Part shown: piece by piece, positions 22,848 to 34,379 of the stretch | How the letters are laid out: each line of letters begins with the position of its first letter | Position numbering within the stretch: position 1 is the first letter of the stretch | Source: Ureibacillus acetophenoni | GTDB taxonomy: Bacteria > Bacillota > Bacilli > Bacillales_A > Planococcaceae | Reading direction: 5' to 3' | Length of the DNA: 64,000 nt | NCBI RefSeq assembly: GCF_900220965.1 | Contig: NZ_OBQC01000005.1 | Coordinates: forward strand, 1 to 64,000 | The notes under the pieces: model-generated | Told to the model about the DNA's origin: nothing | The model's input: the letters and a program-made list of their open reading frames with translations, nothing else | The model's database searches: none | Made by a program: the position numbers and the translations under genes

Positions 22848-23025
22848 TTTTCCAACTTATTATTCAATTGAACATATTCTGTCGCAATTGTTTAACATTA
22901 TTTTTCATTAGTTATAAAGCAAAACACTTAGGGAACAATAAAGCTGAACAAAACCTGATACTTTCATAGGGTAAATTTCATAATGAAATTACAAATTAAA
23001 ATTTCTACCGAGAAAGGAATTCGTG

Positions 23026-24558
23026 ATGAAAAAAGTTTCAAATGTATTTTGGATTTCTGTTGCAATCGTCCTCCTTGCATGCATATATGGTGTTATTGCA
23101 CCAAAAAGTTTCGAAAAAACAACTGGGAATATTCAAGCATTTCTTACAACGTCCTTCGGCTGGTACTATCTAATCTTAGTTACGATCATTGTGATCTTTT
23201 GTCTTTTTCTTATTTTCAGCCCAGTTGGAATTATAAAACTTGGGAAACACGATGAGGAACCTGAGTTTTCTAGAGTATCTTGGTTTGCAATGTTATTTAG
23301 TGCAGGTATGGGAATTGGACTTGTATTCTGGGGTGCAGCGGAACCATTGTCTCACTTTATGAATCCTCCATTAGCTGAACCTGGAACAGACACAGCCTAT
23401 AAAGAAGCGATGCGTTATACATTTTTCCATTGGGGTATTCATGCTTGGGCTATATACGCAATAGTGGCATTAGCTTTAGCTTACTTCAATTTCCGCAAGG
23501 GTGAACCGGCGCTCATATCTTCTACCTTAAAACCAATTCTAGGCAAAAAGGCAATGGAAGGTATTTGGGGAACCGTTATTGATGTATTAGCCGTTGTAGC
23601 AACAGTTGTTGGGGTTGCAACAACTTTAGGCTTTGGTGCAACACAAATAAATGGAGGACTTTCTTTCTTATTTGGTATACCAAGTAATTTCACAGTTCAA
23701 TTCATCATTGTAGCAGTCGTAACAATATTGTTTTCCATTTCAGCATCAACTGGATTAGGGAAAGGTATTAAAATTTTAAGTAATGCTAACATGGTGTTAG
23801 CCGTTATTCTTTTGCTTTTAATGTTTATCATAGGACCTACCCTCCTTACGTTAAACATGTTTACAGACTCTCTTGGTGGTTATATTCAAAATATAGTTCA
23901 GATGAGCTTCCGTATGGCTCCACTAGATGAAGAGAATCGTACATGGATTAATGGATGGACAGTCTTTTATTGGGCATGGTGGATTTCATGGTCTCCGTTT
24001 GTAGGTATATTTATCGCTCGTGTATCAAGGGGAAGAACAATACGAGAATTTATTATAGGGGTTTTATTGTTACCTACACTTGTATGTTTTGTTTGGTTTT
24101 CGGTATTTGGTACAGGGGGAATTGAAGTTCAGAAAGCTGTATCTCACGACATTTCTCAATTAGCAACTGAAGAAGTATTGTTTGCTATTTTTAACGAATT
24201 ACCTTGGTCCACAATTTTATCTATTGTTGCAATTGCGTTAGTAAGTATCTTCTTTATAACATCAGCAGATTCTGCAACTTTTGTACTTGGGATGCAAACT
24301 ACATACGGATCCCTTAATCCATTAACTGCAGTAAAATTAACATGGGGAATCGCACAATCAATCGTTGCTTTAGTCCTTATTTATAGTGGTGGGTTACAAG
24401 CATTGCAAAATGCATTAATTATCGCTGCCTTTCCATTTTCCTTTGTAATGATATTAATGATGATTTCGCTATATAAATCATTAGTAAAAGATAAAAAAGA
24501 ACTTGGATTGTATCACAAGCCAAAGCCACGTAAAAAGGTTGAACATACAAACAATTAG
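23026..24558 (+). CDS. BCCT-family betaine/carnitine/choline transporter
   Basis: About 510 residues with 12 membrane helices. BCCT signatures are present: [18 protein letters not shown] near residue 90 and the helix-8 Trp-rich [23 protein letters not shown] near 315-335, plus the [11 protein letters not shown] segment. Members import glycine betaine or related quaternary amines with Na+ or H+ for osmoprotection; the GMGIG form of the glycine motif is the sodium-coupled type (OpuD-like). ATG 23026 is used rather than the adjoining GTG because AAAGGA is seven bases upstream. Originally convergent with rpsI before the island inserted. Confidence 0.95.
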
Positions 24559-24639: not shown

Positions 24640-24671
24640 AAAAAAACCCTCTCTCGAAAATCGAGAAAGGG
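24640..24671 (-). terminator. ancestral rpsI terminator left of the island
   Basis: Minus-strand stem CCCTTTCTCGA/TCGAGAGAGGG followed by TTTTTTT. It lies just beyond the left copy of the rpsI 3' end, so it was presumably the native terminator of rpsI before the element inserted and now has no gene ahead of it. Confidence 0.85.
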
Positions 24672-24694
24672 TTGTAAAACGTTGAATACAGATG

Positions 24695-24758
24695 ATTAAC
24701 GTTTTGAGAACTGAGGCGCACGACGAGCACCTTTAAGACCGTATTTTTTACGTTCTTT
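24695..24758 (-). repeat. left attachment site: 64-bp copy of the rpsI 3' end
   Basis: Perfectly identical over 64 bp to the 3' end of rpsI at the other end of the island. On the minus strand it encodes the last 20 residues of ribosomal protein S9 ([10 protein letters not shown] to FSKR) and the stop codon, but no start or upstream part. Identity stops abruptly (T against C at the next base), as expected for an integration core duplicated by site-specific recombination. Confidence 0.95.
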
Positions 24759-24872
24759 TATGTGTACTTATAATATGAAGATACATGGAATAAAACAGTC
24801 CTTATTATTCAAGGTTTAAATGTTTTTTATTAGCATAATTGAAATTTAATAATATACCGTTATATATGTTTC

Positions 24873-24890
24873 GTGACCAAAAGGTGACCA
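24873..24890 (+). repeat. arm-type integrase site, left end (two GTGACCA repeats)
   Basis: GTGACCA occurs at 24873 and 24884, an 11-bp period, about 115 bp inside the left attachment site. The same heptamer occurs four times inside the right end in the same orientation. Such short direct repeats near both ends are the arm-binding sites of lambda- and Tn916-type integrases. Confidence 0.75.
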
Positions 24891-25097
24891 ATTTATTGAA
24901 AGCATACACCATTAAGGACATCACTTTTTAAAGAAAATTTGACCCATAGTGAAATTCCAAGGAAAGAATTAATTCAAAAGTCAGAGAAAAGGTCTTTAAT
25001 TAGGATAAGACCTTTTCTATTTTATTAATAGAAAAATTCTAAGAATTATTTATTAAAAGCAAAAATTGTTTACTCTACGCTTCTATGGTAGTCTCTT
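24891..25097. other. left-end noncoding stretch of the island with a terminator
   Basis: The 339 bp between the left attachment site and the HNH gene hold the arm repeats and a bidirectional terminator hairpin at 24986-25017 (GAAAAGGTCTT/AAGACCTTTTC, 11-bp perfect stem). The hairpin could end transcription of the HNH gene. The rest is AT-rich with no gene. Confidence 0.75.
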
Positions 25098-27116
25098 TTA
25101 AATTTTCTGTAGCGTTCTTTCAAAGCTTGGTTCCAAATGTTTATTTAATCTAATATGAATTAAACGATTTGAATCAGTATTATTTAAAAAAAATAGTTCC
25201 CCCTCTTTTTCAAGTAGTTTTTTATAACCACCATACTCATAATGCATCACTTTATGATGATGTGGACACAACACTATGACATTCTTATAACTATCAAGAA
25301 ACTCCTCTGATTCATCATTAGCACCTATGCCTTCATGTAACGGAACGATATGATGCACTTCAACATACTTCTTACCTTCTTTAGTAATAATCTGCGGAAT
25401 CTGATCAGAATTTTCATTTCCACAAATTTGACAAGTATAATCGTATAATTCTTTTAGTAAAACAACTAGTTGTCTAGATCGTGCTATCTGTTCTACTGGT
25501 TGTTTAGTAGTGTTCAAATTACTCTGTAATTTTCTAATATTACCAAGCAGGAAATCCTCTACTTTATCAATTTCAACATCATCATCCTGCAGTTGAAGAA
25601 AAGCTCTATTTGTATTAATTGGTGATTGAATATTTTTTAAATAATCTTCTGCTTCTCTTTTAGATAATCGTTCAAAGCCCCATTCTTTTAATAACTCATC
25701 CTCGTCATAATTAATTTGGGTTGCATATGACCAAATTTTCTTATGAGGTAAAGTTTTTGATTCCAAATAAATTTTGTTATCGTTACTAACAAGTTTACAA
25801 TTTTCCTCAACCATTCTAATTAATTCGAGTTCTTTAAAATCGTCCCGACCATCTATCTCTTCAAGAACTGGAGTATAATTTTTGGGTTTTCCAACAAGCT
25901 CTACATTATAATAGTTTTCTAAATAATCTTTAAAACTCATTTTTTGAATGGATGAATCAACTCTAAGTAAATTATATAATTTTGTACCCGATGGTATATA
26001 AACCTTCGTTTTCTTATTAGCAGTTGAAAGTTCTTCATCAACACGAAACTTCAATATGCGTTCAAGAAGTCTCTCATATCTTTGTCCATCTTGATTACCG
26101 ATATACTTAAATCCGTATTCTTCCATTAACTTCTCAATAGTGATCCCACAATTATTGTAAGCAAAATGATATATTTTTTTGTAATCTTTGCTTTGCTTAT
26201 CCTCAAAAAATACATGACCTGTATCATCCATATTAGCCTCGATTATTTCAAAGATTTTTTTATTACGAGGCACTCCTTTAATAACACTTAAATTATTAAA
26301 ACCAAAATACTTATAAAAATCCTGAACATCTTTAAACTTATTAGATTTTTTCACCATTCTTTTCAAAGTACCAGTTTCACTTATTGTAAGTGTATACCCT
26401 TGTGGGTTTTTGGTGTCATACATAGCTAATTTATGAAGGAAATTTAACTCTTTTTCTTTAAACACATCAAAACCCTTTTTTATCAAGTTTTCAAACAGGC
26501 TAGAAGGCTGTTTAGAAGATAGTTTTAGGGTTCTATATGTACTTGTATCCCTAACTAGAAGGTAGAAATATTCTCCTACCTTTTGTTTTAATATTTGATA
26601 ATGTAATGTCCCATTACTATATTTAACTCTTCTTGTTTCAATCATATCGTCAAAAGTAATCAAATCATGTTCGGTTAACTTTTCTATTGGTTCAGGTAAG
26701 CTCTTACTATCTAGCGATGTACTGAGCCAAATAGCTAAATAATAACCGTTACATTTCAACATTTCTAAAACAAATATTATATTAAAATCTGTTTCCCTAA
26801 TAAGTTCTCTAAAAAGTGCCTTATTATGTCTAAACATTTTATTTTCTACTAAGAATAGATCTTCTTTTGGAACTAAATCTAGAGTCTCAAAATATTTAAA
26901 CCCTTGTGTGCTTAGATAATAACTAATTTTATTTTTTACATTTATGTCTTCACTTTTAAATAAATCTTTATATTCCGGAAAACTTACCATAAAGTTGTAA
27001 ATGGCATTACTTAGTTTTTTAAAATAATCCTGTAATCGAAATACCTTTTTATCTGGAAACAATAAATTCAATTCTTTATTCAAATCATTAATTTTCTTAT
27101 GCATGAGATACGACAT
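25098..27116 (-). CDS. large HNH endonuclease-domain protein with repeated modules
   Basis: 672 residues. Residues 545-640 form an HNH nuclease: CQIC (562-565), the beta-beta-alpha core VEVHHIVPLHEG (His 588-589), Asn612 and LCPHHHKVMH (617-626), with all metal and catalytic residues in place. The N-terminal 215 residues are helical and unrecognised. Between about 216 and 485 lie four divergent modules of 55-65 residues (about 216-277, 284-340, 344-408, 425-485), each ending with a pattern like 'L.EYGFKYIG', 'LKEWGFERLS' or 'FYKYFGFNNLS'; these could bind nucleic acid. It is farthest from the integrase, the usual cargo position. Antiphage defence is a possibility, not shown. Good GGGGGATG ribosome binding site. 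Confidence 0.8.
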   Translation of the reverse strand: MSYLMHKKINDLNKELNLLFPDKKVFRLQDYFKKLSNAIYNFMVSFPEYKDLFKSEDINVKNKISYYLSTQGFKYFETLDLVPKEDLFLVENKMFRHNKALFRELIRETDFNIIFVLEMLKCNGYYLAIWLSTSLDSKSLPEPIEKLTEHDLITFDDMIETRRVKYSNGTLHYQILKQKVGEYFYLLVRDTSTYRTLKLSSKQPSSLFENLIKKGFDVFKEKELNFLHKLAMYDTKNPQGYTLTISETGTLKRMVKKSNKFKDVQDFYKYFGFNNLSVIKGVPRNKKIFEIIEANMDDTGHVFFEDKQSKDYKKIYHFAYNNCGITIEKLMEEYGFKYIGNQDGQRYERLLERILKFRVDEELSTANKKTKVYIPSGTKLYNLLRVDSSIQKMSFKDYLENYYNVELVGKPKNYTPVLEEIDGRDDFKELELIRMVEENCKLVSNDNKIYLESKTLPHKKIWSYATQINYDEDELLKEWGFERLSKREAEDYLKNIQSPINTNRAFLQLQDDDVEIDKVEDFLLGNIRKLQSNLNTTKQPVEQIARSRQLVVLLKELYDYTCQICGNENSDQIPQIITKEGKKYVEVHHIVPLHEGIGANDESEEFLDSYKNVIVLCPHHHKVMHYEYGGYKKLLEKEGELFFLNNTDSNRLIHIRLNKHLEPSFERTLQKI

Positions 27117-27225
27117 TTACATCCCCCATTGTTAAATTATCGAAAGCACCTCAATAATTTCCTGATCCCCTTATATCAGCCTCTAATTATCAAAATCTTT
27201 TAGCTACAAATTAAAGTCTATGGTT

Positions 27226-28860
27226 TTATAATTCTCTTAGCACTTCTCCAACAGTTTTATACTTCCTACCATTCTTATAATATCCATCAATTAAGTAAAT
27301 AATTGAATCTACTTCACCACGTGACAAATATTCGCCATTGTTTTCCGCCACAGTACTTATCAATTCTCTTTTCTCAAAATTCGTCAAATAGCTCCAATCA
27401 TAACCATCTATATCTATAGTGGACGCTCCTAAGGTACTTACGTTACTTTGACTTGATTCGGATATCTCTATAACCGCTTCTCTTACAGTTTTATATTTCC
27501 TTCCATTTTCATAATAACCGTCTATCAAATAAATAATTGAATCTACTTCATCTTGAGATAAATATTCACCATTGTTTTCTGCTTCCGTATTTATAAATTC
27601 TCTTTTCTCAAAATTCGTCAAATAGCTCCAATCATAACCATCTATATCCATAGCTGTTTCCACAAAGGAATCTTCTTTGCTTTGACTTGATTCAGAATAC
27701 TCTTTAAGTACTTCCGCAACTGTTTTATACTTTTCTCCATACTGTGCATAAGTTACATCTACTAATAAAACAATTAAATCTATATCATCTTGCGATAAAT
27801 ATTTACCCTTGTTTTCCATTAACGTACTAATTAGTTCTCTTTTCTCAAAATTCGTAGAATTTCCCCAACCATAACCATCCATGTCTAAAGAAGGTTTTTC
27901 GAATGTACTTATTTTATCTTGGCTTGATTCCGAAATGTCTTCTCGCTCGCTGTTCTGAATATTCATACCGTTAATTGAAACTTCTTGATTACCATTGGAG
28001 TCAGTATTTTCTACATTTACTTCATCCTCAACTAAATAAATTCCTTCCTCCCGGTTAATTCCAATTGTATACTCCTTATTCAATTTCTCTTCTGAATCTC
28101 CACTAGCACTATTTGCCCCTATATTTCCTTTTGCAAATGTGCCTAGTAAGATAAGGATTAATGGTAATAATAATACTAACATCACCCTTAGGAATCCTAT
28201 TTTTCCATGAGTAATTTTCAAATTATTCTTGCGATCCCAATAGGTTATTCCATAAGCTTTTAAATCACTATAGGATTCTGCTAAACAAAAGAAACTTACT
28301 ATAGGAATACCCAACCCCAATCCCCTAAACCATAAAAATGTGCTTCTCTTTAGGGCTGTAGAAAGATTAATTCTATTCTCGTTTTTAGTTGTTATCTTTA
28401 TTCTAAGTAAATATCTCCCTAAAGTACTTCCAAATAACGTAAGTAAAATAGAATCAATAAATATCCATAAAAATAAACCAATCAATCCAAAAATAACACC
28501 ATTTGCTTCATACAAAACTTCACTTGGTAATATTAATGATAGAATTACAAAAAAGAGGCACAAGTCAAACATTTTAGCTAAGTATCTAATCCAAGGTCTA
28601 CTTTTCGAATAAGTCTGAGAACCGTTTTGCTTATAAGTCGTACTACTCGAAACCTCTAATGGCAATGGTGGAGGTGTAATAGTAGAAAAAAGTGATGCTA
28701 GTTGATCACATTCCCCAGCTGCTTTCCAATCATTCATATTACTTGTCCATACTAACGTGTTTTTATCTAATACTCCCTCAAGAAATAACGTTAACAACTT
28801 TGATTCTTCAATGGGGCCATTCTGTTTCCCTTTATAAACATAAAACCAAGTTGATTCCAT
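27226..28860 (-). CDS. GYF-RDD membrane protein with triplicated C-terminal domain
   Basis: 544 residues. Residues 1-58 are a GYF_2 domain (WFYVYKGKQNGPIEESKL ... LVWTSNMNDWKAAGE). Residues 88-215 are an RDD membrane domain with about three helices, and a further helix lies at 222-241. After a polar linker come three tandem copies of a domain of about 65 residues starting at residues 326, 405 and 483 (D-x-DGY-x-W, TNFEKRE, EN.G.YLS..E(D)VD, GRKYKTV), joined by SESSQS linkers. The last helix places the repeats on one side of the membrane, most likely outside. I know no characterised protein with this arrangement; the role is unknown. Confidence 0.8.
   Translation of the reverse strand: MESTWFYVYKGKQNGPIEESKLLTLFLEGVLDKNTLVWTSNMNDWKAAGECDQLASLFSTITPPPLPLEVSSSTTYKQNGSQTYSKSRPWIRYLAKMFDLCLFFVILSLILPSEVLYEANGVIFGLIGLFLWIFIDSILLTLFGSTLGRYLLRIKITTKNENRINLSTALKRSTFLWFRGLGLGIPIVSFFCLAESYSDLKAYGITYWDRKNNLKITHGKIGFLRVMLVLLLPLILILLGTFAKGNIGANSASGDSEEKLNKEYTIGINREEGIYLVEDEVNVENTDSNGNQEVSINGMNIQNSEREDISESSQDKISTFEKPSLDMDGYGWGNSTNFEKRELISTLMENKGKYLSQDDIDLIVLLVDVTYAQYGEKYKTVAEVLKEYSESSQSKEDSFVETAMDIDGYDWSYLTNFEKREFINTEAENNGEYLSQDEVDSIIYLIDGYYENGRKYKTVREAVIEISESSQSNVSTLGASTIDIDGYDWSYLTNFEKRELISTVAENNGEYLSRGEVDSIIYLIDGYYKNGRKYKTVGEVLREL
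27229..27885 (-). repeat. three tandem repeats inside the GYF-RDD gene
   Basis: Three in-frame copies of a unit of 78-79 codons. Copies two and three are nearly identical for the DIDGYDWSYLTNFEKRE segment and the GRKYKTV segment; copy one is more diverged. This indicates two duplication events, the second recent, and a locus prone to change in copy number by recombination. Confidence 0.9.
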
Positions 28861-28932
28861 AAAGCGTCTCCCTAATTTAAATTATTAATATACTAACCCA
28901 TTATGGCGGTTTCACTAGATTTGTAACCGCAA

Positions 28933-29394
28933 TTAATCACTACAACCACAGCGACCTAATGTATCAATGGGAAAACCACAAGAATTACATATCGAAGTAT
29001 TATGTACCGATACATTCCTTTGTTCAGGATTATATTTTTTTCCCTCAGTGATATTTTTATACGATACCTTTAATATATCCCTTGAACACTTTTTGCAAAT
29101 ATGATGCTCGATGTTATGAGTATTGAATAAATCCTTACTTTTACATCTTTTACAAAGGTTTATTATTAAATTTTTACTCTCAATAAAACTATCTATAAGC
29201 TTTTGTATCTCAATTATTACATAGTCTTGGATTTCACTTACTGTACCGTTTTGGATTAAAATATTTATTTCCCTTAGTAATTGTTTGTCTTGTATAATTA
29301 ATTTTCGTAAATTTCGTTCTACATGCTCATCATTTTCACATTTATTAGATAGCCATTCTTTCATTATTTTCTGGATAGGAAACAAAAAAGTCAC
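28933..29394 (-). CDS. small protein with two zinc-binding clusters, unknown function
   Basis: About 150 residues. The first 80 are helical. Cys81-x2-Cys84 with Cys100-x2-Cys103 forms a rubredoxin-like zinc ribbon; a second cluster at the C-terminus has Cys136-x2-Cys139 and Cys149-x-Cys151. I do not recognise the family. The frame opens with GTG 29394 inside a GAGGGGTGA site, so TTG 29385, six bases after it, is a likely start. It lies between the GYF-RDD gene and another zinc-ribbon gene on the island. Confidence 0.65.
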   Translation of the reverse strand: MTFLFPIQKIMKEWLSNKCENDEHVERNLRKLIIQDKQLLREINILIQNGTVSEIQDYVIIEIQKLIDSFIESKNLIINLCKRCKSKDLFNTHNIEHHICKKCSRDILKVSYKNITEGKKYNPEQRNVSVHNTSICNSCGFPIDTLGRCGCSD

Positions 29395-29439
29395 CCCTCA
29401 TTTACTAAAATTGTAAATTATGTTTAATTTTATTCTATA

Positions 29440-29471
29440 TAAAAAGACTCTTCACAACAAGTGAAAGAGTC
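29440..29471 (-). terminator. intrinsic terminator within the island
   Basis: Minus-strand stem GACTCTTTCAC/GTGAAGAGTC with a bulged base, followed by TTTTT, downstream of the zinc-ribbon gene. It separates the replication/regulation operon from the cargo genes. Confidence 0.85.
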
Positions 29472-29555
29472 CTAGGATATTATTACTAATAATTTTACTA
29501 TTTCTAAACATAAGTCGCCCTTTACTTATACCCACTAAATCCACTTACTGATTAC

Positions 29556-30173
29556 TTATTGTTTGAAATCTTTATTTAAATCTAAGAACTTATAAGCTCC
29601 ACGTAACCAGTACTGAAAGGACAATTCACTATATTTTTTAAACTTGCACCACAATTTCTGATATGCAATCCATTTCATATATTTAGGTTTAGCAGGAAAA
29701 GGCCGGTTTAAGTTATATTTATACTCCTTATCTATTTTTCTTGCGACTTGTTCAGCTTTCCGTTGATAATAGTAACTATCCGTTTTTGTATGTTGTTGGG
29801 AATAGTAGTTTAAATTACAACATGTCCTACACGCTAATCCAATATTATCACCATATAATTTGCTGCTTCTTCTACCGCATGATGAACATATGAACCAGTA
29901 TCTAACACCCCCATAATGACAGGGAGTTTGATCTACATAAATTCGTAATTCTAAATTTGAATAACTAAGGCTGATATACATTTCATCTGGATTAACAATA
30001 CCACTCCCAAGTACTTTCCTAGAATTAGTAGGTGAATGAAGAGTAAATGATGATAGCCCAGTATCATTGAACGCTTTAGAAAAGAATCTGATAGAGAACG
30101 TTAATCTATTTTCTACAATATCCTTACTTTTTACATACCCAGCTCCATATCTACCACTTCCTACTCCTCCCAT
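29556..30173 (-). CDS. MGGxGSGR-type zinc-ribbon protein of mobile elements
   Basis: 205 residues. The N-terminus MGGVGSGRYG is a recurrent motif of a widespread but uncharacterised family found on phages, plasmids and integrative elements. A zinc ribbon is formed by Cys96-x2-Cys99 (FICSSCGRRSSKLYG) and Cys115-x2-Cys118 (ACRTCCNLNYYSQ), followed by a basic helical C-terminus. DNA binding is plausible. A GGGGGG ribosome binding site precedes the ATG. The gene starts a unit that ends in the terminator at 29440. Confidence 0.75.
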   Translation of the reverse strand: MGGVGSGRYGAGYVKSKDIVENRLTFSIRFFSKAFNDTGLSSFTLHSPTNSRKVLGSGIVNPDEMYISLSYSNLELRIYVDQTPCHYGGVRYWFICSSCGRRSSKLYGDNIGLACRTCCNLNYYSQQHTKTDSYYYQRKAEQVARKIDKEYKYNLNRPFPAKPKYMKWIAYQKLWCKFKKYSELSFQYWLRGAYKFLDLNKDFKQ

Positions 30174-30303
30174 TCAAGCACCCCCCTGCATTTTCCTGAC
30201 CCTGATTTACCTAAATAATTAAAGAAAACTACCTTGTTTATGAAATCGTGATGTACTTATATCTAATTCCTTAATAAAGTTATAGTTAACGAATTACCTA
30301 ATT

Positions 30304-31041
30304 TTAAAACGAATACTCCAATTCCTCTAAATATCGAACGACACAACTTTTTCCACCATTTAACGCTAAGAACGATAAGATGTTACCATTATTCATAGGC
30401 GATAAGTATTCAAAATGGTAATCTATTATTTCCAACCATTTATCCTCATTGATATCTAAAGTAAGGCTTAAATCTTCGTAGTTTGAAATTAGCTCTCTCA
30501 TTTTCTCATCATTCATTGTTGGATGATCTGTTTTAAACATATCCATATATCGTTGTGCATAATAGGCGAAAGCCTCATTTTCTTCAGAAATGAGGTATAT
30601 GTTTTCTTTATTATTATTAATTTTAGTATTATTTAATTTATTATTATTAGTGTTCAGTTTTTTACCTTTTAAATGTTCAGTTTTTTTACTTTTAAAAGGT
30701 AAGTTTTTTTCCTTTAATATCTCCATAATCACTGTCTCATCTTCATTTATCTTAAAAAAACGCATTGGGGGAGAACCCCTGTTATCCCTCTTTATTAACT
30801 TTAACTCCACTAATTTATCAATTGCCTTTTTTTGCTGGTATTTAGTAAGCGTAGTATCTAGCTCCATATTTTCAATCGTATTAAAGAAAAAACCATCCTC
30901 CGTTAATAAGCCTCTTTGGGCAAAATACTGCTGTTTACTTATCAATTCAGCATATAACACAGCAGCATCCAAACCAATCAATCGAGACAATCTTTTGTTT
31001 ACTATGATACTCCCGTCAGACCGCAATAAATCCAAGATCAT
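30304..31041 (-). CDS. replication-initiator-like protein (DnaD/RepA-N winged-helix type)
   Basis: 245 residues. The N-terminal 110 residues (VNKRLSRLIGLDAAVLYAEL ... FFFNTIENMELDTTLTKYQQKKAIDKLVELKLIKRDNRGSPPMRFFKI) match the winged-helix region of DnaD-like replication proteins of plasmids, ICEs and phage satellites. A low-complexity Asn/Lys linker at about 127-147 precedes a helical C-terminal domain. It overlaps the excisionase-like gene by 4 bp (ATGA), so the genes are coupled. It may allow excised element DNA to replicate. Confidence 0.75.
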   Translation of the reverse strand: MILDLLRSDGSIIVNKRLSRLIGLDAAVLYAELISKQQYFAQRGLLTEDGFFFNTIENMELDTTLTKYQQKKAIDKLVELKLIKRDNRGSPPMRFFKINEDETVIMEILKEKNLPFKSKKTEHLKGKKLNTNNNKLNNTKINNNKENIYLISEENEAFAYYAQRYMDMFKTDHPTMNDEKMRELISNYEDLSLTLDINEDKWLEIIDYHFEYLSPMNNGNILSFLALNGGKSCVVRYLEELEYSF

Positions 31042-31337
31042 AAGTTATTTACCTTCGGTGTATGTTCGCCAGAATTTTTTTGAATCCACGCCTTTACTGC
31101 TCCTCGATTCAAACGAATTACTTGTCCTCTTTGGAAATAGGGAATGTCATTGCTATCTATCAATTTTCGTATTGTTGGGACACTCACCTTAAGAAACTCT
31201 GCTGCTTGCTTTATGGTCATAATATCCTTATCATCTTTTTCCGCTTTGATTTCTTCCATCATCTCTTTTAATACTGCTCTTAGGTCACCCTTACTAATCA
31301 ATATCTTGTCTTCGGGTATTTCAATCTTGAAGTTCAC
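31038..31337 (-). CDS. excisionase-like helix-turn-helix protein
   Basis: About 99 residues. The C-terminal half is a MerR-like/excisionase winged helix of the DNA-binding domain family common to Xis proteins (MTIKQAAEFLKVSVPTIRKLIDSNDIPYFQRGQVIRLNRGAVKAWI). It would bend DNA at the element ends and set the direction of recombination, or act as a regulator. The start is taken as GTG 31337, five bases after AGGTGA; the frame opens at 31346. It overlaps both neighbours, showing tight coupling with the HTH regulator and the replication gene. Confidence 0.8.
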   Translation of the reverse strand: MNFKIEIPEDKILISKGDLRAVLKEMMEEIKAEKDDKDIMTIKQAAEFLKVSVPTIRKLIDSNDIPYFQRGQVIRLNRGAVKAWIQKNSGEHTPKVNNL

Positions 31338-31521
31338 AAACATCACCTAGCTTACTAATCTCCAAAATTAACCACCTTTTCTCTTCCTGTTCCAATTCCT
31401 TTCGTAAAAGCCTTGAAAAAACACTTTCATCGATTTTCAATAATTCGGCTACTTCCCACTGCTTATAACCCATTGATTTAATCATATTTCTGATTTCTTG
31501 ATTAGCTTTTCTCTTCTTCAT
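31321..31521 (-). CDS. small Cro/CI-like helix-turn-helix regulator
   Basis: 66 residues with a single helix-turn-helix (NQEIRNMIKSMGYKQWEVAELLKIDESVFSRLLRKEL) resembling Cro/CI-type or phage-regulator domains. AAAAAGGAGG precedes the ATG. It is the first gene of the leftward regulation/replication operon and faces a rightward gene across 132 bp that contains a perfect palindrome, so it may repress one or both promoters and hold the element quiescent. Confidence 0.82.
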   Translation of the reverse strand: MKKRKANQEIRNMIKSMGYKQWEVAELLKIDESVFSRLLRKELEQEEKRWLILEISKLGDVCELQD

Positions 31522-31580
31522 TGAAGTACCTCCTTTTTAATTTACAAAACAAAACTTGAATTATTGTTTCTGTTGTTGTA

Positions 31581-31597
31581 ATGTTAGGTTAACATTC
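31581..31597. promoter_or_regulatory. palindromic operator candidate in the island's divergent control region
   Basis: AATGTTA-GGT-TAACATT is a perfect 7-3-7 inverted repeat in the middle of the 132 bp between the small HTH regulator and the rightward gene. It is well placed to control both transcripts. Core promoter boxes around it are weak, and I do not assign them. Confidence 0.65.
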
Positions 31598-31653
31598 AAT
31601 ATTTACATTTTTAATATATAAAAAGGGTAAATAATAAAAAGCGAGGTACATTT

Positions 31654-32676
31654 ATGACTAACAACTCAATCTGGTGGAAATCTGAATTTGAAATTGAAGA
31701 TATAAATGGAATTGAATTTATTGTTCAAATAAAAGGAGGTGAAAGAATTGATTATGATCCACTGAATTATGCTATACCAAATAAAAGACCAGACATTCCT
31801 AGTGGGCAAATAGAAATAGCTCCTCACATAGCATTAAGTCGGATTGATCCTGATAGTAAAGAAGAAATTTTAAGGTTCGTAAATGTATGGGGGCTATTAG
31901 GCTTACGAGATACAGCCATCTACGGTAATAAAGAAACAATCATCAATATATTTAATAATCATAATTTAGAACTTAATTATCCCAGTACAGAAGAGTTGTA
32001 TAACAATAATAAAAGACGTGGAGGTGAAAGGAAGCGTGAACCTTTAATTGTTATTCAAGAAGCTGTTCGGACTTTTCAAGAAATTGTACAAAATATTAGC
32101 TTGTATCATGAGGATGAGGGCTTAATAAAAGGCATTCGTAGTTATAAACAACAAATTGAGTTCAAGAAAGACGTAATACGTAGAGAAGATGTAACAAATC
32201 AAACTTATAAAGGTGCTAAACAAAAAGAAGCGAGAGAACTTTTTAATAAAGACACACAATCATTTATTACATTTGAAAGTTTAAATAGGATGCTATCTGA
32301 TGTACACCCACATGTATTTGCGGATACGAAGAACCATTCTATTTCAAAAGGTTGGCGTTTTAAGTCACTAATAGCAGCAATCTACCTAAGAGTTGCACTT
32401 GATTTAGAAGAAGATAAAAAAATAATTCATTGTAAATGGAGGAAATGTAATAAGCTGTTTATTCCTAATAGACCCGATAATCAACATTGCTCAGATGCCT
32501 GTAAAGACAATGAAAAAACAGATCGGGCGAATCAAAGAAAATGGTTGAAGGAAGCAATAGAACAATATAATACTCATCCAACAAACAAGATTGAAGAAGC
32601 ATTTAATTCCTTAATTCAAGAAGGAGTAAGCGGAAGAGTAAAAATATTAGGGGCAATCGGAAAAAAATTACGCTAA
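31654..32676 (+). CDS. CGNR-like zinc-finger protein next to the integrase
   Basis: 340 residues. Residues 60-95 contain RFVNVWGLLGLRDT, a motif recurring in uncharacterised phage and island proteins. Residues 260-283 form a treble-clef-like zinc finger, Cys260-x4-Cys265-x13-Cys279-x3-Cys283 (KWRKCNKLFIPNRPDNQHCSD), followed by a basic segment, reminiscent of CGNR zinc fingers that bind nucleic acid. It is transcribed toward the integrase with 37 bp between them, so probably one operon. A regulator or accessory recombination factor is plausible; function unknown. Confidence 0.7.
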   Translation: MTNNSIWWKSEFEIEDINGIEFIVQIKGGERIDYDPLNYAIPNKRPDIPSGQIEIAPHIALSRIDPDSKEEILRFVNVWGLLGLRDTAIYGNKETIINIFNNHNLELNYPSTEELYNNNKRRGGERKREPLIVIQEAVRTFQEIVQNISLYHEDEGLIKGIRSYKQQIEFKKDVIRREDVTNQTYKGAKQKEARELFNKDTQSFITFESLNRMLSDVHPHVFADTKNHSISKGWRFKSLIAAIYLRVALDLEEDKKIIHCKWRKCNKLFIPNRPDNQHCSDACKDNEKTDRANQRKWLKEAIEQYNTHPTNKIEEAFNSLIQEGVSGRVKILGAIGKKLR

Positions 32677-32713
32677 TTTTTTATTGTCATTATTAATAGA
32701 GAGGAGAAAATAA

Positions 32714-33865
32714 ATGGCATCATTCCAAAAGTACAATACTAAAAAAGGACAAATGTGGTTGTTTATTATCGACACTGGAATTGATCCTGAAACAGGTAAA
32801 AGACAACAGGCTAAACGAAGAGGGTTTAAAACGAAGAAAGAGGCACAACAAGCTGCTTTGGAACTTGAACAACAACTAGCAAACGGTATATCACTAAATC
32901 ATAATAAACTTACCTATCAAGACGTTTATGAAGAATGGTTTTCTACACACGTTAAAACGATTAAAATTAGTACCCAAAAGAGTATTGAATCAAAATTCAG
33001 TAAGCATATTTTACCTCGCTTTGGTCAATTAAAACTAAGGGATATTACCAAGACATACTGCCAAAAAGTAATTAATGATATAGCTGAGACCATTAATTCT
33101 GTTAATGACATTAAGATACAAGCTAACCAAGTTTTCAAGTATGCCTTAAAAATGGATATTATACAAAAGAATCCTATGGAGCATGTAAGCATACCAAGAC
33201 AACAAAGTGAGTTCATCACCGAAGAAAATGAAAAGGATGCGCGAAATTATTGGAAAAAGGAAGAGATAAGGAATTTCCTTACCTTAACTAAACAGGAGTT
33301 ATCATTTCGAGATTATGTATTCTTTCACCTTGCAATATATACAGGAGCGCGTAAGGGAGAAATTCTAGCTCTTACATGGGATGATATAGATTTCAAATCA
33401 GGATCTATTCGTTTTTCAAAAACACTTTTCCATAATAAAGGTCAATTCATCTTTCAAACGTCAAAAACAAAGGAATCTAGACGTTTAATCAGCCTAGATG
33501 ATAAAACCCTTTCACTACTTAAAAAATGGCGTTTAAAGCAAAAAGAATGGGTTATGGCAAAGGGAATTAAATCTGATTATAAAGAACTTATTTTTAATCG
33601 CGAAGATGGTTCTCCAATACGCTTGGCTTATCCTAATGAAAAGCTTGATATCGTAATAAAAAACCATAATCTTCATCGAATAACTATTCACGGTTTACGT
33701 CACACTCACGCCTCCCTTTTATTCGAAGCTGGTGCAAGTATAAAAGAGGTTCAAGAACGTTTAGGTCACTCTGATATACAAATGACCATGAACATCTATA
33801 CACACGTTACAGATACGTTAAAAGAGCAAACCGCGCAGAAGTTCCAAAAGTATATTGAACTATAA
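32714..33865 (+). CDS. int: tyrosine site-specific integrase of the rpsI element
   Basis: 383 residues with three parts: an N-terminal arm-binding domain of AP2-like type (about 1-58, KGQMWLFIIDTGIDPETGKR), a SAM-like core-binding domain (about 65-165) and the catalytic domain. Catalytic residues are all visible: Arg213 (GARKGE), Lys251 or 253, His326-x2-Arg329 (HGLRHTH), His352 (LGHSD) and the nucleophile Tyr362 (NIYTHVT). It is an intact lambda/Tn916-type integrase. Its gene ends 121 bp from the 64-bp attachment repeat, and four GTGACCA arm repeats lie in between. GAGAGGAG ribosome binding site. Confidence 0.97.
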   Translation: MASFQKYNTKKGQMWLFIIDTGIDPETGKRQQAKRRGFKTKKEAQQAALELEQQLANGISLNHNKLTYQDVYEEWFSTHVKTIKISTQKSIESKFSKHILPRFGQLKLRDITKTYCQKVINDIAETINSVNDIKIQANQVFKYALKMDIIQKNPMEHVSIPRQQSEFITEENEKDARNYWKKEEIRNFLTLTKQELSFRDYVFFHLAIYTGARKGEILALTWDDIDFKSGSIRFSKTLFHNKGQFIFQTSKTKESRRLISLDDKTLSLLKKWRLKQKEWVMAKGIKSDYKELIFNREDGSPIRLAYPNEKLDIVIKNHNLHRITIHGLRHTHASLLFEAGASIKEVQERLGHSDIQMTMNIYTHVTDTLKEQTAQKFQKYIEL

Positions 33866-33871
33866 GTGTAG

Positions 33872-33918
33872 GTGACCAGAAGTGACCAAAAAACATTTCC
33901 GTGACCAAAATGTGACCA
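33872..33918 (+). repeat. arm-type integrase sites, right end (four GTGACCA repeats)
   Basis: GTGACCA starts at 33872, 33882, 33901 and 33912, two pairs with 10- and 11-bp periods, all in the same orientation as the two copies inside the left end. Placed between the integrase stop and the attachment core, they are the expected arm-binding sites. Confidence 0.8.
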
Positions 33919-33935
33919 AAAGCGTTTTTCTACTC

Positions 33936-33972
33936 AAAAAAAGACCCTTTCCTCCGAAGAGAAAAGAGTCTT
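33936..33972 (-). terminator. rpsI terminator supplied by the island
   Basis: Minus-strand imperfect stem AAGACTCTTTTC/GGAAAGGGTCTT followed by TTTTTTT, immediately downstream of the current rpsI stop. It replaces the ancestral terminator now 9.3 kb away. It is also in position to stop integrase transcription. Confidence 0.85.
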
Positions 33973-33985
33973 GAAACGTAGATAT

Positions 33986-34049
33986 ATTAACGTTTTGAGA
34001 ACTGAGGCGCACGACGAGCACCTTTAAGACCGTATTTTTTACGTTCTTT
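33986..34049 (-). repeat. right attachment site: 64-bp 3' end of intact rpsI
   Basis: The second copy of the 64-bp direct repeat. Here it is continuous with the complete rpsI gene, and includes its last 20 codons and stop plus one base. Confidence 0.95.
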
Positions 34050-34379
34050 CATACGTGGATCACGAGTTAGTAAACCTGCAGATTTAAGTGCTGGACGGAA
34101 ATCTGGGTCAACTTGTAGTAACGCACGAGCGATACCGTGACGGATTGCACCAGCTTGACCTGTGAATCCACCACCGTTTACGTTTACGTGTACATCATAG
34201 CTACCTTTAGTTTGAGTTGCTTCTAATGGTTGGTTGATGATTAAGTGTAAAGTTTCGAATGGTAAGTAGTCTTCGATACTACGGTTGTTAATAACGATTT
34301 TACCTTCGCCTGGTACTAAACGTACGCGAGCTACTGAGCTTTTACGACGACCTGTGCCGATATATTGTACTTGTGCCAA
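33987..34379 (-). CDS. rpsI: 30S ribosomal protein S9
   Basis: 130 residues, full length, with the family motifs [16 protein letters not shown] at the start and [25 protein letters not shown] at the end (given here in two parts by residue 109-130); the C-terminal Arg-Lys tail reaches the P-site tRNA. It follows rplM by 22 bp as in other bacteria. The final 20 codons are the attachment core of the adjacent integrative element, so the present 3' end may come from the element, but the reading frame is intact. Confidence 0.99.

Follow-up and report, generated by a model that had tools for sequence, protein, structure and literature searches.

Integrative islands at the 3′ end of rpsI, the gene for ribosomal protein S9, have already been published, namely the McRImecD islands, IMESag-rpsI and elements resembling phage-inducible chromosomal islands (PICIs), and the kind of element described here is not new. 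The McRImecD islands of Macrococcus caseolyticus carry a tyrosine integrase at the rpsI 3′ end and have a 61-bp core that includes the end of rpsI; the same report also describes excision of McRImecD-1 and rpsI-associated integrases in Bacillus with up to 46% identity (PMC5341023). Literature searches naming Lysinibacillus and Ureibacillus returned, by title, nothing on such an element, and a published report may exist. Here, a 9.3-kb segment of the Ureibacillus acetophenoni contig NZ_OBQC01000005.1 was analyzed within a stretch of 64,000 nucleotides, hereafter the window. The evidence makes it very probable that this segment, which resides in a Ureibacillus/Lysinibacillus-like Bacillota host, belongs to the site-specific integrative elements whose tyrosine integrases target rpsI.

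The segment is bounded by two copies of one core sequence, which lie as follows relative to the host genes and to two terminator-like hairpins:

23023-24558, plus strand: host BCCT transporter gene, left neighbor, also present at the empty site (90% protein identity in genome G010)
24645-24673, minus strand: terminator-like hairpin, probably the displaced native one of rpsI (z -5.58; resembles the G010 hairpin)
24695-24758, minus strand: left core repeat (attL core), the displaced native rpsI tail (identical at 64/64 positions to both the right copy and the empty site of G010)
33941-33972, minus strand: terminator-like hairpin, probably element-borne and now behind rpsI (z -4.79; resembles those in the elements of G006 and G009)
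33986-34049, minus strand: right core repeat (attR core), forming the end of the functional rpsI
33987-34379, minus strand: host rpsI (S9), target gene, an open reading frame

The two core copies are identical at 64 of 64 bp, with a start-to-start distance of 9,291 bp. Each comprises the last 20 codons and the stop of rpsI plus one base, and base 65 differs between them. The 64-bp sequence was found exactly twice in the whole genome of the host (G000; 39 contigs, 3.98 Mb), which excludes a chance repeat; as both copies are identical, the crossover point within the 64 bp is not readable. GC content is 31.0% in the element, against 34.4% and 37.9% in the 10-kb flanks. An empty site was found in G010, a genome of another species whose rpsI is the most similar to that of the window (98%). 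There, the BCCT gene and rpsI are convergent neighbors separated by one core, identical at 64 of 64 positions, and the window flanks joined with a single core aligned to this region without a break over 3,492 columns, at 86.3% identity. rpsI was present in all 25 genomes of the genus that were searched; of the other single-copy genomes, the four inspected (G013, G002, G008 and G004) contain the core and gave no BCCT match in the stretch read.

Folding of both window hairpins and of the G010 hairpin (z -4.73) surpassed that of 200 out of 200 shuffles, and a scan with a terminator pattern was not above chance (4 terminator-like sites versus 3.5 expected). Because the left hairpin is like that of G010 and the right one like those of the G006 and G009 elements, the sequences indicate that the left core is the displaced native tail, and that the element supplied its own hairpin behind the functional rpsI. 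An earlier sequence-only reading of the window had proposed a perfect 64-bp duplication of the rpsI end, had predicted convergent BCCT and rpsI genes with one core in a relative lacking the intervening genes, and had supposed that the element carries its own gene end plus a terminator. The duplication and the empty site were both borne out, and in agreement with the last point a separate terminator-like hairpin accompanies each copy of the core and the rpsI frame is open.

A tyrosine integrase gene adjoins the 3′ end of rpsI and reads towards it, flanked by short repeats that recur at the opposite end of the element:

32714-33865, plus strand: tyrosine integrase (Int) of 383 amino acids, rpsI-associated lineage
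24873-24890, plus strand: left putative arm-type sites, two GTGACCA with an 11-bp pitch (24873, 24884)
33872-33920, plus strand: right putative arm-type sites, four GTGACCA (33872, 33882, 33901, 33912)

The integrase had been called intact from the sequence, and its frame is indeed full-length, with R213, H326, R329, H352 and Y362 all in place. To place it among its relatives, 110 integrase loci were examined, 30 from a search of family genomes and 80 from named genomes, and a locus was scored as rpsI-linked when an rpsI tail lay within 900 bp downstream of the integrase in the opposite orientation. This held for 18 of the 110 loci, corresponding to 17 distinct places as one was counted twice, with Bacillus, Paenibacillus, Oceanobacillus, Sporolactobacillus and Macrococcus represented among them. 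The integrase tree contained 102 loci, 14 of them rpsI-linked; left out were L085, which duplicates the record of L038, and all rows that contained stops or covered fewer than 300 query residues, the rpsI-linked loci L078, L130 and L149 among them. The window integrase paired with that of G006 (support 100/98) and then with that of Bacillus marasmi (100/99). The rpsI-linked label required three changes on the tree, as few as in none of 500 shuffles, so that it is clustered, a single clade not being demonstrated. Another locus, L171, lies on a 128-kb record of Bacillus subtilis NA05 labeled as plasmid (pBSUNA05-1) that holds rpsI, rplM, rpoA and other core genes, and is either a chromosomal piece or an unusual replicon.

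Six of the seven GTGACCA copies of the window lie on the same strand and within 250 bp inward of the cores, the seventh being on the other strand. The motif GTGACCAAA occurred four times against 0.65 expected, and none of 100 shuffles reached four. The elements of G006 (L065) and Bacillus sp. FJAT-29814 (L078) have six sites in the same arrangement and at nearly the same distance from the core, all reading GTGGTCA, with a pitch of 11 on the left and, on the right, successive spacings of 10, 17 or 19, and 11; FJAT-29814 has one further GTGGTCA copy on the other strand. Position and regularity make it probable that the six repeats are arm-binding sites of Int. The central difference between GTGGTCA and GTGACCA is one that turns TGGTCA into its own reverse complement. 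Behind the integrase, seven of the 18 rpsI-linked loci have at least two TGGTCA, the window has TGACCA and ten have neither, several of the ten showing other short tandem motifs as judged by eye. The TGGTCA tandem motif was also seen at locus L076 of Paenibacillus profundus, whose integrase (58% identical) is located away from rpsI, an apparent change of target. Residues 18, 33 and 34 of Int are I, A and K in the window and K, T or S, and T in the TGGTCA-type integrases, six of which, five of them rpsI-linked, had an aligned N-terminus for this comparison. As a cause of the arm-site switch these residues are not supported, since K, T and T are retained in four more distantly related integrases that have tandem TGACCA sites (L055, L060, L103 and L106).

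An extra rpsI tail was present in seven of the 25 genus genomes including that of the window (six of the other 24), with an integrase of this family next to rpsI in four of them (the window's own genome, G006, G009 and G018). In G014, G017 and G021 the extra tail was accompanied by no integrase match at E ≤ 1e-60, nor was there one at 1e-5 in the stretch of G017. The latter (L073; G017:C1:2228000-2247500) has an rpsI tail at three places across 15.5 kb, including that of the functional gene, with transposase-like genes between them as judged by eye, and may be a tandem at this site that has decayed. Such loci bear on the idea that the window segment is a decaying genomic island, that is, an immobile remnant of a prophage or island. 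Sister loci are often broken, as the G006 integrase is split, that of G208 is a fragment with an internal stop and the G017 tails have no integrase match. The window itself, by contrast, has identical cores, a full-length integrase with its catalytic residues, six uniform arm sites and nine open frames, and decay is distinctly improbable here.

Besides the integrase, the element contains eight genes:

31654-32676, plus strand: 340-amino-acid protein in the position of an Stl/Rpr regulator (no Pfam match)
31321-31521, minus strand: small helix-turn-helix (HTH) protein of 66 amino acids in an Str-like position (Pfam HTH_37 just below cut-off)
31038-31346, minus strand: HTH_17/excisionase-family protein of 102 amino acids, putative Xis (best HTH family 1.7e-20)
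30304-31041, minus strand: O-like replication initiator of 245 amino acids (phrog_428, 1.3e-12)
29556-30173, minus strand: zinc-ribbon-like protein of 205 amino acids (weak Pfam match, 0.025; relatives in streptococcal satellite phages)
28933-29394, minus strand: zinc-ribbon-like protein of 153 amino acids (weak matches only, below Pfam cut-offs)
27226-28860, minus strand: 544-amino-acid protein with GYF_2, RDD and three C-terminal tandem repeats, cargo
25098-27116, minus strand: 672-amino-acid protein with a C-terminal HNH nuclease domain, cargo (PF13391, 2.6e-07; mREase_IV, 1.6e-05, HNH region only)

All nine frames are open, those of Int and the 340-residue protein on one strand and the other seven on the opposite one. 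Of the genes described from the sequence alone, the excisionase-like and initiator-like ones gave Xis-family and O-like matches, and the smaller member of the divergent pair gave an HTH match. The C-terminus of the 340-residue protein contains what we take to be a CGNR-like zinc finger motif. Its structure prediction was uninformative (pLDDT 44, residues 1-257 below 50), comparison with solved structures gave two insignificant matches (best E 0.14) and the phage collection none. AT-rich direct repeats within the initiator gene (30602-30689, with 23-bp copies at 30644-30689) may represent an origin with iterons as in O-like systems; no BLASTP similarity was detected between this initiator and that of the G009 prophage. 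A possible anti-phage role is suggested for the HNH protein, whose relatives in two other family genomes are 32% identical and lie beside a gene presumably encoding a PD-(D/E)XK nuclease; prediction of its structure from the single sequence was uninformative (mean pLDDT 38). The C-terminal repeats of the GYF_2/RDD protein correspond to three 234-bp tandem repeats at 27228-27932, of which the second and third are 81% and 64% identical to the first.

The distribution of four element proteins was assessed in 261 family genomes including that of the window, with thresholds of 1e-8 for the 340-residue protein, 1e-6 for the 205-residue protein, 1e-15 for the HNH protein and 1e-10 for the initiator; an order-level search, also of 261 genomes with the same handles where listed, added nothing. 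The first two were found only in the window's own genome, and the HNH protein and the initiator in three and four genomes, respectively, own genome included, the others being distant relatives. As two proteins had no match and two had only distant ones in the 260 other genomes, the searches indicate that the island was acquired horizontally rather than inherited. Vertical inheritance, which the sequence-only reading had singled out as incompatible with its proposal, was rejected: the four proteins searched do not follow vertical phylogeny.

Related elements at rpsI share parts of this gene set. That of B. marasmi (L075) encodes relatives of Int (69% identity), the 340-residue protein (38%), the 66-residue HTH protein (57%) and Xis (47%), with type I restriction-modification genes nearby; its 21-kb locus contains one core, the far end not being located. 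The G006 element (L065) has an integrase 76% identical and split into two frames, an Xis 53% identical, a similar arm-site geometry and hairpin, and the PADLOC candidates PDC-M33A and PDC-M33B at L065:7269-10798. No match to the window initiator was found in either element. Thus compared by sequence, the cargo appears to vary around a common core, with defense-type genes in the B. marasmi and G006 elements. G018 contains a 14.2-kb element with an integrase, a regulator, an HTH/Xis-like gene and a DnaD-like initiator, in which no structural family was detected in two proteins compared with PHROGs and four with Pfam. Prophages occupy the site as well. Seven scanned proteins of the G009 rpsI prophage correspond to small (TerS) and large (TerL) terminase subunits, portal, head protease, tape measure, tail protein and endolysin, this prophage being split between two contigs that were joined by inference from the rpsI tail on the second. 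In G112, from another genus, terminase subunits, a portal and a major head protein are encoded within 30 kb of an rpsI-linked integrase, the far end not being located. The prophage integrases of G009 (L066, L192, L193) and G112 (L072, L194) are 43-44% identical.

Family scans of the nine element proteins revealed no capsid, portal, large-terminase, relaxase or coupling-protein family, and on this family content a complete prophage and a complete integrative and conjugative element (ICE) were both rejected. The sequence-only statement that transfer, packaging and capsid genes are lacking holds in that no such family stood out; it is qualified by one weak match of the excisionase-family protein to phrog_57, annotated as terminase small subunit (1e-4), over the HTH, where the best HTH family scored 1.7e-20. 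The only lysis-labeled match was also weak, that of the integrase to phrog_4855 (0.0057). No primase or known interference gene was found among the nine proteins, the O-like initiator being the only replication match.

These results bear on how the element might move. It could be a satellite of the PICI kind, in which the 340-residue protein would be a master repressor lifted by a helper protein, and the phage would replicate the element and package it via a cos or pac site. The order of integrase and candidate regulator, divergent HTH, Xis, Rep and accessory genes fits the PICI plan as laid out in PMC6092414, prophages with packaging genes occur at rpsI in G009 and G112, and the 205-residue protein has relatives in streptococcal satellite phages. 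It matched 108 phage records, the names of which all begin with Streptococcus; of the ten that were listed, nine go by the name of satellite phage and the tenth is a 10.5-kb antibiotic-induction element (29-36% identity), and in the three phage records opened the match comes soon after a primase. Relatives also exist on 26 plasmid records, which speaks against a satellite, at least one of them (pFGCSD4, with a P4-family primase) looking satellite-like; no solved-structure relative was found. In scans of viral contigs, 19 loci had integrases with at most 38% identity to that of the window, and no relative of the 340-, 205- or 672-residue proteins was detected. Against a PICI-kind satellite also stand the missing primase and interference genes, the weakness of the TerS match, the absence of TerL and portal matches to three profiles in the own genome, and the presence of prophages at rpsI in relatives, at odds with the rule, given in PMC6092414, that PICI sites never hold them. 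On balance, such a satellite is a serious candidate, at somewhat less than even chances. Alternatively, the element could be an integrative and mobilizable element (IME) like IMESag-rpsI, with a conjugative element acting in trans and the element itself contributing a non-canonical relaxase or no more than an oriT. Site and size agree with IMESag-rpsI, which is about 9 kb (PMC5090054), and replisome-organizer genes occur in IMEs (PMC5704250). No relaxase or coupling-protein family was found in the nine proteins, however, and AAA_10, the only transfer family searched in the own genome, had a single match there, which fell short of the curated cut-off; an IME is quite unlikely. As to the initial description as a phage satellite or minimal mobilizable element, the layout is satellite-like, but no relaxase, primase or convincing TerS was found, nor a resident helper with the three profiles used.

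For the preferred reading, an rpsI-targeting integrative element, the following course can be proposed. Int would bind the repeats as arm sites and recombine attP with the rpsI tail. As attP would carry the last 20 codons and the stop, S9 would be rebuilt unchanged, and the hairpin of the element would end the transcript. Quiescence would be kept by the divergent pair formed by the 340-residue zinc-finger protein and the 66-residue HTH protein. On induction, Xis and Int would excise the element, and the circle would be kept until transfer by the O-like initiator together with host replisome proteins. Since the scans revealed neither a relaxase nor a clear packaging gene, transfer would most likely depend on a helper phage or on passive routes. 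The HNH and GYF/RDD genes would be cargo, plausibly protective. A broader and doubtful extension of this scheme is that small islands with an int-regulator-HTH-Xis core share the rpsI tail as a landing site, swap defense cargo there and live as satellites of rpsI prophages, and that here Int and the six arm sites switched jointly from GTGGTCA to GTGACCA with spacing kept. If true, this would be a natural switch of specificity, and the HNH and GYF/RDD genes an undescribed anti-phage cargo.

Several observations weigh against the preferred reading. The element is known from its sequence, and the empty site comes from another species (G010) instead of a strain of the same one. In the comparison with rpsI-specific integrases suggested earlier, the integrase groups with rpsI-linked ones, although two closely related integrases, the interrupted one of G208 (71%) and that of L076 (58%), lie away from rpsI as far as their loci were read. 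The wider integrase family is common, with matches in 99 of the 261 family genomes at E ≤ 1e-60, and RGTGACCA is not enriched (4 versus 1.98 expected). The 340-residue protein is not a recognized repressor and matched no known DNA-binding family. Finally, no helper is evident, as the own genome gave no match for TerL (phrog_2, phrog_9) or the HK97-type portal (PF04860), a search limited to these profiles and not extended to phrog_38, found in G112, or other families.

The locus is of interest because the boundaries of this rpsI island are clear, its empty site is available from another species, and it has probable arm sites and a probable terminator. It illustrates insertion into a ribosomal gene that leaves the encoded protein unaltered. 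It renders cargo swapping at one site comparable (type I restriction-modification, PDC-M33, HNH), and because all six arm sites have changed in the same way, co-evolution between an integrase and its sites could be tested here.

Compared with known systems, the window element resembles satellites of the PICI type, including Staphylococcus aureus pathogenicity islands (SaPIs), in its integrase and candidate regulator opposed to divergent HTH, Xis, Rep and accessory genes and in the absence of structural genes; PICIs are about 15 kb and have a primase, whereas the window element is 9.3 kb, without primase or convincing TerS, at a site shared with prophages and with no helper known (PMC6092414). 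IMESag-rpsI of Streptococcus agalactiae, of about 9 kb, always lies at the rpsI 3′ end and excises; it has a MobV relaxase, whereas none was found in the window element (PMC5090054). In group B Streptococcus, the rpsI 3′ end serves as a site for an ICE, for a prophage and for PICI-like elements whose class is unsure (PMC7487436), the comparison with these streptococcal elements being by description. The McRImecD islands share with the window element an int gene with divergent HTH and Xis genes and a lack of transfer and packaging genes. They differ in their size of 16-18 kb and in carrying mecD, virE and, in McRImecD-1, restriction-modification genes, where the 9.3-kb window element has an O-like initiator, HNH and GYF/RDD cargo and a 340-residue regulator candidate (PMC5341023). 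The Macrococcus integrase included in the tree (L084, M. brunensis, 41% identity) falls on a different branch, and the published McRImecD integrases were compared by description only. The window element is best filed as an rpsI-targeting integrative island of the kind described for Macrococcus (PMC5341023), which extends the rpsI site of the Macrococcus resistance islands and the streptococcal IMEs to a Ureibacillus/Lysinibacillus-like host.

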